Positions 14,774-17,317 of a stretch of DNA of 40,996 nt are shown piece after piece. This DNA comes from Patescibacteria group bacterium (GTDB taxonomy: Bacteria > Patescibacteriota > Patescibacteriia > Patescibacteriales > UBA12465): assembly GCA_027858435.1 (NCBI GenBank), contig JAQICS010000057.1, positions 1 to 40,996 of the forward strand. The letters run 5' to 3'. The notes under the pieces were generated by a model that did no database searches, was not told the origin of the DNA, and saw only the letters and a list, made by a program, of their open reading frames with translations. The position numbers and the translations under genes are program-made. The stretch's first letter is position 1. Every line of letters begins with the position of its first letter.

Positions 14774-15307
14774 TTAAAATAACAAATGAACAAACAAAGC
14801 TACAGAAATAATTGAAAGAGTTGCTGAAAATAAAACTGGTTTGTGTTCTCCAATTTTAAACCAGGCAATAAATAAAATAACAGCAACCACAACAGAGTAA
14901 AATGCAACTAATAGACCACTTATTTCCATTCTAATCAAAGCTGTTAAAACTTGTGCCCAAATAGTCCAATACATAAATAGTGTATAAAAGCCCCAAGTTT
15001 CTCTTTTAATCTCTTTTTTACTGTCTAAGTCATCTTCTTCATTTTTATCAATCTTTTTTTTCACAGTCTTGCTTATTCTTTGCATTAGACTGGATAAAAA
15101 AGAAAGAAAGAAGAGAAAAAAACTGAGCGATCCTAATGAAATATCGGCAATATAATTATTGCTAATTAAATTAAAAGAGAAAAATACATAAAATATTATT
15201 GTAAAAAACAATATATTCAATAAACTTTGCCAATATCTTTTTGTTTCAACTAAACCAATTCCAATCCATAGAATTGAAAGAACGAAAATTACGATAATTT
15301 TTTCCAT
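14774..15307 (-). CDS. membrane protein of unknown function
   Basis: 177 aa with multiple hydrophobic segments. Confidence 0.65.
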   Translation of the reverse strand: MEKIIVIFVLSILWIGIGLVETKRYWQSLLNILFFTIIFYVFFSFNLISNNYIADISLGSLSFFLFFLSFLSSLMQRISKTVKKKIDKNEEDDLDSKKEIKRETWGFYTLFMYWTIWAQVLTALIRMEISGLLVAFYSVVVAVILFIAWFKIGEHKPVLFSATLSIISVALFVHLLF

Positions 15308-15310
15308 TTT

Positions 15311-15856
15311 TTATAATTTTAGTGATAAAACAAATGAAATTAAAAGGAGTAAAAAACTAGTTATAAAATAAATATTTCTATAACCATTTTTATAGCCCGA
15401 CATTACTTGAAAGACAGCTGCACAAAAAAGAGCAACAATAATTGCTATAGATACAACTAATAATTCATCAAAGTTTAACAAACATAAAATCCATATTAAA
15501 AAAACTAAAAAGAAAATAAAGTATATAACCGGTAAGGTTTTTAATAAAAACCTATCGTACTTAACCTTTTTGTTTTCTTTGTTTTTTAATCCATGAAAAG
15601 TTTTTTGTGTTCCACTAAAAACAAAAAATGAAGTTAATGAAAAAATTATCATCATTTGTTTAGAAATTTCTTTAAGAAAAATAAAGAAACTATCTGGGTC
15701 ATATTCTCCTCTGTTTGTCGCAATTATAAATAAAAACGAGCTTGTAAACAGATAAATTACTACAACGATAGCTAGTTTATAGCCAAACTTTATCCTAATT
15801 AAAGCTAAAAATAGCAAAATTAAGAAAAATATTATTCCAATCAGTTCAACGCTCAT
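15311..15856 (-). CDS. membrane protein of unknown function
   Basis: ORF to 15907; start proposed at Met 18 (MSVELIGIIFF); multiple hydrophobic segments. Confidence 0.6.
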   Translation of the reverse strand: MSVELIGIIFFLILLFLALIRIKFGYKLAIVVVIYLFTSSFLFIIATNRGEYDPDSFFIFLKEISKQMMIIFSLTSFFVFSGTQKTFHGLKNKENKKVKYDRFLLKTLPVIYFIFFLVFLIWILCLLNFDELLVVSIAIIVALFCAAVFQVMSGYKNGYRNIYFITSFLLLLISFVLSLKL

Positions 15857-15898
15857 GATATTTAGTTTTAAATGTTCGAAAATATTAATTAACAGTTT

Positions 15899-15927
15899 AT
15901 AATACAAAAATTTTAGCTATATGTCAA
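15899..15927 (-). promoter_or_regulatory. sigma70-type promoter for the 15856/15307 membrane protein pair
   Basis: Minus strand TTGACA (15922-15927), 17-nt spacer, TATTAT (15899-15904). Confidence 0.6.
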
Positions 15928-15978
15928 CAAAAAAACCGTTTTTGTTAGTTATCAGTGATAATGTCATAGTAGATGTTC

Positions 15979-16004
15979 AATAGAAATGTCATAGTGGCGG
16001 GACA
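15979..16004. repeat. 26-bp direct repeat, left copy
   Basis: AATAGAAATGTCATAGTGGCGGGACA, identical to 17263-17288. Confidence 0.95.
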
Positions 16005-16005
16005 T

Positions 16006-16028
16006 TATGTTCCATAGCTTGAACATTA
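16006..16028. repeat. 23-bp dispersed imperfect palindrome, copy 1
   Basis: TATGTTCCATAGCTTGAACATTA, identical to 36915-36937; ATGTTC-N8-GAACAT dyad. Confidence 0.95.
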
Positions 16029-16036
16029 GCATATAT

Positions 16037-16079
16037 AAAAAAGAAAAAGGGTTATCCACGTTGATATTGTGAATAACCC
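16037..16079 (-). terminator. intrinsic terminator of the orphan gene
   Basis: GGGTTAT (16049-16055)/ATAACCC (16073-16079) hairpin; minus-strand continuation is TTTTTCTTTTTT. Confidence 0.8.
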
Positions 16080-16163
16080 CTAAAAATTTGTCTTGATCGC
16101 CTTCGGCGAAAATTCAAGAATCAAGAAATCAAAAGACTCAAAAATTCAAAACATCAAGGTTCA

Positions 16164-17027
16164 CTACTGCGGAAGCAAAGCCGACGCGGACCCGGAGCAA
16201 CTAGAGGGAAAGCCAACCTCGCCGTCGCCGAAGCCAACCTCGCCGTCACGGTACCAGAAGTACGGGGCGCTCGAGAAGCCGCTATCGGCATCACCAGCAC
16301 AGTCGATCCAAAGATCATTATCGTGCTGAAGCCGTTCCGGGTGTGTTAGAATCATAATCGCGATGGCAAAAGCCCCAAGACCGAATTCGCTGGCGTTCAT
16401 GACTTCGAGTGCCCGGCGAACCGAAAAACCCCTGTAACGAAGACCAAACTGAGCTGGAACGATGAGAATATCGTAATCCTTCTGTTCATCACCGAGCTTC
16501 TGGAATGCCTTGCTGGACTTCTGCGACTGACGGAGATACTGCGGACCGAGCAAGCCTTCACGGCAGTTGTAGAACACGTCGATTCTGGTCTGCTTGATCA
16601 GGTCGAGCACCTTCTGTAGGGCTTTGCCGTAAGTCGGTGCGATCTTCTCCCACCTCGGAATAGCGAACCATCCCTCGGCGTTTGGGGGAAGTTCTACTTC
16701 AGCCAGTTTCTCATCGGCGTAGCCAATCCCGGGGAACAACTCGCGCAACCGGTTGGTCTGCTCAGTGATTCCCCTTCCCTTGGGCTTGTAGCCGGAGAGG
16801 TAGCCGGAGAGGTAGCCGTAGTTGGATATCCTTTCCTCATCTTTAAACTGATTGCTCACGGTGAGTTCACGGATAGCGGTCACGATCCTTGCCTGGAATT
16901 TGTCGCCATTTTTAAAGAGTTTCTGAAACCCATCTTTGTTAGGTCCAACTTCGGTAAGTGCCTTGTCTGCAGCGTCTTCGACAAACCTTTTATACTGCTT
17001 TTTCTGTCCTGCGGTGATCACTTTCAT
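16164..17027 (-). CDS. orphan protein of unknown function encoded by a GC-rich gene
   Basis: 287 aa, composition clearly unlike neighbours; SD AAGGAGG just upstream of ATG at 17027; bracketed by promoter and terminator. Confidence 0.82.
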   Translation of the reverse strand: MKVITAGQKKQYKRFVEDAADKALTEVGPNKDGFQKLFKNGDKFQARIVTAIRELTVSNQFKDEERISNYGYLSGYLSGYKPKGRGITEQTNRLRELFPGIGYADEKLAEVELPPNAEGWFAIPRWEKIAPTYGKALQKVLDLIKQTRIDVFYNCREGLLGPQYLRQSQKSSKAFQKLGDEQKDYDILIVPAQFGLRYRGFSVRRALEVMNASEFGLGAFAIAIMILTHPERLQHDNDLWIDCAGDADSGFSSAPYFWYRDGEVGFGDGEVGFPSSCSGSASALLPQ

Positions 17028-17089
17028 AGTGTCATCCTCCTTAATTTTAGATTTACCCGAATCGCTCGAGTTAAGCGACTTGCTTCTTT

Positions 17090-17145
17090 ATGAAGCGAGT
17101 ATAGTAAAAACCCTTTATTTAGGACGTTCACTATACTCGCTTCAT
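17090..17145. repeat. 16-bp perfect inverted repeat in the orphan gene leader
   Basis: ATGAAGCGAGTATAGT (17090-17105) and ACTATACTCGCTTCAT (17130-17145), 24-nt loop. Confidence 0.95.
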
Positions 17146-17207
17146 AACAGTAAAAACAATAAAACCTTTAATTTACCTACTTTTAAAGGAACTTATATTA
17201 ATGACTA

Positions 17208-17236
17208 ATTATAGTAAAATATGACAAATATGTCAA
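17208..17236 (-). promoter_or_regulatory. consensus sigma70 promoter of the orphan gene
   Basis: Minus strand TTGACA (17231-17236), 17-nt spacer, TATAAT (17208-17213). Confidence 0.8.
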
Positions 17237-17262
17237 GCTAAGAAAATAAAATGTAATTTCAA

Positions 17263-17288
17263 AATAGAAATGTCATAGTGGCGGGACA
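17263..17288. repeat. 26-bp direct repeat, right copy
   Basis: AATAGAAATGTCATAGTGGCGGGACA, identical to 15979-16004. Confidence 0.95.
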
Positions 17289-17317
17289 CAAAAAAAACCG
17301 TTTTTAGCGGCTTTTTT
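17289..17317 (-). terminator. intrinsic terminator of the infB-rbfA operon
   Basis: Minus strand AAAAAAGCCGctaaaaaCGGTTTTTTTT. Confidence 0.6.

Follow-up and report, generated by a model that had tools for sequence, protein, structure and literature searches.

An insert at 15943–17288 of the window (by which we mean the whole analysed stretch of 40,996 nucleotides, taken from one MAG of a Patescibacteria group bacterium) is probably, at roughly 0.7 by our own estimate, an orphan target cassette of a diversity-generating retroelement (DGR) that was split from its retroelement and delivered by an IS1202-type insertion. In relatives, the gene is rewritten from a neighbouring template repeat, at template adenines; the unit in the window retains the leader, gene and 3′ hairpin without the template, Avd or reverse transcriptase (RT), and the only RT detected in its genome works with a different template. 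The rbfA terminator received an insertion of the transposition type, as a 51-bp IS end and a 15-bp duplication show; ISNCY/IS1202-type transposition may have brought the unit in or, as an alternative step, a small IS relic may have inserted with the unit gained later. Short of a matching template and RT arriving in trans, the variable protein would now be frozen.

Architecture and ends of the insert

Two exact copies of a 26-bp repeat lie on the same strand at 15979–16004 (starting with the IS subterminal motif AATAGAAATGTCATA) and 17263–17288 (where an ACA tip adjoins the right target-site duplication), the expected number of 26-mer repeat pairs in shuffled sequence being 0 even at 3 mismatches. 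As a preliminary description of this region had reported, these direct repeats enclose one self-contained minus-strand transcription unit, and we recovered each of its parts: a promoter (TTGACA-17-TATAAT, 17208–17236, 12/12 consensus match), a structured 5′ leader (17028–17156) with a long hairpin at 17088–17147, a small hairpin and a Shine-Dalgarno site (AAGGAGG), the gene for a 287-aa DGR-type variable protein (16164–17027), and a terminator-like hairpin (GGGTTATCC.../...GGATAACCC, 16049–16081, read by eye), all on the minus strand. Hairpins resembling the last were also seen at L003, L004 and L023.

The insert itself extends beyond the 26-mers, running TGT...ACA, and its flanks (CA7CCGTTTT and CA8CCGTTTT) repeat 15/16 bp of the rbfA terminator in direct orientation, with the left target-site duplication (CAAAAAAACCGTTTT) at 15928–15942 matching the right one, inside the rbfA terminator at 17289–17304, bar one extra A. 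Such a 15/16-bp match is equalled by 3e-5 of random AT-rich intergenic pairs, the left duplication adjoins an IS tip defined independently from another copy (on contig C60, below), and the flanks joined without the insert read as an unbroken rbfA terminator and, after it, the promoter of a membrane-gene pair. This two-gene pair (14774–15907), which was not found at the corresponding site in congeners, does have its own promoter (TTGACA-17-TATWAT), as had been described, and because that promoter abuts the target-site duplication we take it to predate the insert.

The first 51 bp of the insert (15943–15993, TGTTAGTTATCAG...AATGTCATA) match, at 51/51 positions, the left terminus of an intact ISNCY/IS1202-like element on contig C60 of the same genome. 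That element is 1495 bp long, runs TGT...ACA, encodes a 442-aa transposase (ISNCY_2; NF033594 at 348 bits) and carries three copies of AATAGAAATGTCATA in its ends, which agrees with the published features of the IS1202 family (TGT/ACA tips, a size of ~1.5 kb, a transposase of ~441–457 aa and a duplicated internal site, that is, an extra transposase site within each end; PMC10132070). The window insert departs from this family in that its right end is atypical, it contains no transposase and it carries a passenger gene; the absence of an internal transposase had been noted before together with the consequence that mobility would be in trans, and the C60 ISNCY_2 is a candidate for that role. At its right tip the insert differs from the right end of the C60 element, so that there is no inverted left/right pair, and the right end has a TGT tip with the transposase motif reversed. 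The earlier suggestion that the repeats are the ends of a transposable element holds for the left copy, which starts 36 bp inside a TGT-starting IS end, but not for the 26-mers as two inverted ends, and the anticipated transposase with the same ends is present with an identical left end but a different right one.

A third copy of the 26-mer, 65% identical, at 15954–15979 shows the left 26-mer to belong to a longer array that is an IS end, and we infer that the two 26-mers are the shared right halves of two IS-derived relics in direct orientation. Searching for the 26-mer in this and related genomes, as had been proposed, gave no further copy in the genome itself, and its last 20 bases at up to 2 mismatches were absent from 110 other genomes of the order except for a single 2-mismatch site in G069; finding no such copies, we rejected the 26-mer as a multicopy IS of the family or order. 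Neither a solo element nor a second copy was seen, and we rejected flanking direct repeats as a family feature: repeats of at least 13 bp were absent from 47 of the 48 other family loci tested, the remaining one (L109) having one 13-mer. A relative IS (L061, in G017; 52% identical) has a perfect 15-bp duplication, TATAAGAAAAGGTCA, at a terminator (by eye), close to but just under the range published for the long-duplication subgroup of IS1202 (16–28 bp; PMC10132070); the putative duplication of the window insert is 15/16 bp with its one A indel. Both of these IS1202-like insertions in the group sit in intrinsic terminators (at 17298–17310 in the window).

Two other accounts of the repeats have to be weighed against delivery of the whole cassette by an IS1202-type insertion. 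A 62-bp IS relic (15943–16004, TGT...ACA) might have entered the terminator first, and a circle bearing the 26-mer might then have recombined in, leaving the 26-bp direct repeats; the left relic does by itself start with TGT and end with ACA, the 26-mers are exactly direct, and a circle accounts for the absence of an inverted right end, but we found no recombinase, no circle and no other copy of the relic or of the 26-mer, and we regard this sequence of events as possible though rather unlikely. Far less credible is a role for the 26-mers as an upstream regulatory site common to the two neighbouring promoters of cassette and membrane pair: each does lie upstream of a minus-strand TTGACA-17-TATWAT promoter, yet the left one is within the 51-bp IS end that is found elsewhere with a transposase, and the membrane-pair promoter is older than the insert.

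The gene family and its link to DGRs

Compared with Pfam, NCBIfam, PHROGs and PDB sequences, the 287-aa protein had no match at the thresholds used. We found 19 related loci, several of them partial, mostly in Patescibacteria with two in Acidobacteria MAGs, and a scan of the phylum showed a patchy distribution (28 of 384 other genomes). Seven relatives (L003, L005, L006, L007, L011, L013, L023) possess a template-like repeat ~0.4–0.5 kb from the gene, and in fixed 60-base windows the best matches (50–54 identical) have every template/gene mismatch on a template A. Avd and RT adjoin the family gene in these same seven, with Avd antisense to RT (tblastn; the Avd of L003 scores 83.7 bits in NCBIfam against a cut-off of 80). 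Given these adenine-only differences and the adjacent Avd and RT, the 287-aa gene is, by sequence relationship, a member of a DGR target family, and its earlier characterization as an orphan gene, if taken to mean one of obscure origin, is not supported. For the window gene itself, whose adenine-directed differences could be judged only against the relatives' templates, mismatches at A make up 23/47 and 24/47 in the two longest C-terminal alignments, where A is about 25% of template bases.

The family thus described resembles the variable-protein genes of Patescibacteria DGRs (cf. DGR clade 2, PMC8144416) in its C-terminal variable repeat, positioned in the window at 16165–16293 (minus strand) by homology to the relatives' template repeats, and the relatives resemble Patescibacteria DGR loci in their adenine-directed template differences with Avd and RT as neighbours of the gene. 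On the 3′ side of the variable repeat, ~54 nt past the stop codon, the window gene has a candidate DGR hairpin (TCGCCGAAGGCGA, 16097–16109, minus strand), as in phage BPP-1 (PMC3240598); of the 48 family genes put through a perfect-stem scan, 21 (the window's among them) have a short G+C-rich hairpin at most 110 nt away, and some of these hairpins may be terminators. A conserved stretch of ~250 nt that looks like the 5′ part of a DGR RNA precedes the template repeat, between gene and template, at L005, L006, L007, L011, L013, L019 and L023, and LOOT RNA (RF03000) occurs a few kb from two DGR target loci (L003, 5048–5167; L013, 8038–8150).

The AlphaFold model of the 287-aa protein has a mean pLDDT of 87.4, and Foldseek against the PDB returned nothing significant (best E 0.58), its weak, non-significant C-type-lectin matches, TvpA (2y3c) among them, only hinting at such a fold for the predicted structure. 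Presumably the 287-aa protein functions in binding and has a C-terminal face that is variable. Within its coding sequence, in-frame tandem duplications (16210–16247, 17 bp exact with 21-bp spacing; 16788–16811, 12 bp) suggest length change by slippage.

The cassette was correctly described as richer in G+C than its surroundings (a peak of 0.54 vs about 0.24–0.34), and GC3 is 0.63 in the 287-aa ORF vs 0.15–0.20 in rbfA, infB, pnp and a membrane gene. Across 48 family genes (including L087, which runs off its contig) mean GC is 0.56 vs 0.44 in the flanks, with 46 GC-richer than their flanks, while the RT genes at six family loci lie at 0.27–0.43. Family genes have a mean third-position A of 0.12, vs 0.43–0.54 in the window's rbfA, infB, pnp and rny; in family genes such as L007, L013, L104 and window 16164–17027 it is strikingly rare even in AT-rich hosts, while adjacent RT genes look host-like. 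Since GC-richness is a family-wide trait, even beside host-like RT genes, it does not date the transfer, and we rejected it as a sign of recent acquisition. Better evidence that the cassette was acquired is its absence from congeners: none of 15 has a family member, and their rbfA flank, where looking for an empty site had been proposed, has no such insert: a terminator and a DHH-type gene come after rbfA there, with trmD instead in G014. The idea of an acquired mobile cassette is supported as to acquisition but not as to GC proving recency. No match was found in phages, plasmids or viral contigs, and we rejected a phage or plasmid as the carrier.

Probable separation of the target from its retroelement

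The window copy differs from known DGR targets in having no template, Avd or matching RT and in being carried in an IS-type insertion. Its genome has one RVT_1 match, on contig C65, where the neighbouring Avd-like ORF scores below the Avd cut-off and the template-like stretch is unrelated to the 287-aa gene. This second, unrelated DGR (G000:C65, L025) comprises the Avd-like ORF at 275–619, the template-like stretch at ~770–930, ending in an NGFSV-type (FGE-sulfatase-like) stretch, and the RT at 1261–2406 on the minus strand. The genome contained no second match to the 3′ part of the 287-aa gene. A putative template-RNA remnant at 16023 (GCTAATGT) was set aside as likely chance, the 8-mer occurring 4 times in the window with both strands counted.

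A matching template could be missing from the assembly (92.75% complete, 70 contigs), in which case a DGR in the 7% of the genome left unassembled might still act remotely on the 287-aa gene as a live target. Two relatives' genomes (G123, G129) do have RTs of the family's clade elsewhere, distant from the gene, but the assembled genome has neither such an RT nor a matching template, and an RT of this clade was likewise not seen in 10 of the 19 relatives' genomes, an upper bound given that several loci and genomes are partial. We consider a live remote target improbable and favour a target cassette that has been split from its retroelement.

The leader RNA and possibly portable targets

Aligning 12 leader sequences, from members picked because the hairpin was present, we obtained an 18-pair consensus stem in which 12 pairs show compensatory changes and 93% of cells are paired, vs 35–51% in slid controls. 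Rfam yielded no family for the leader at the gathering threshold, and a sub-threshold plastid 3′ UTR match was discarded as its identity. A leader model (R1) run on 370 genomes placed its six best matches (E < 1e-15, although R1 E-values are rough), the window's included, directly upstream of family genes. Among the weaker matches (1e-8 to 1e-4) are sites upstream of further GC-rich genes whose C-termini are DGR-target-like (L118, L119, L120, L121, L129), of which L118 has its own adenine-directed template (54/60 identical, all mismatches at A) and encodes a protein without resemblance to the 287-aa protein; some weak matches (L122, L123, L124) had no DGR-target-like gene. Among the scanned family members, L005, L006, L008 and L011 gave no R1 match, so the leader is common rather than universal.

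We tentatively extend this to a broader proposal, somewhat less likely to be right than wrong, that Patescibacteria DGR targets are portable cassettes, made up of structured leader RNA, gene, 3′ hairpin and terminator, which pass between genomes without the retroelement, IS-type insertion being one of the routes, with a leader general across non-homologous target families. An RT-centred survey would, as such a survey itself states, miss targets remote from the RT (PMC8144416), and the leader RNA could find those that were missed. The pairing of adenine-poor, GC-rich target genes with host-like RT genes next to them lends itself to direct testing. The setting here is a short transposon-like insert in the genome of an ultrasmall bacterium, and if our reading is true, hypermutation targets would move alone in bacteria that presumably live on host cells.
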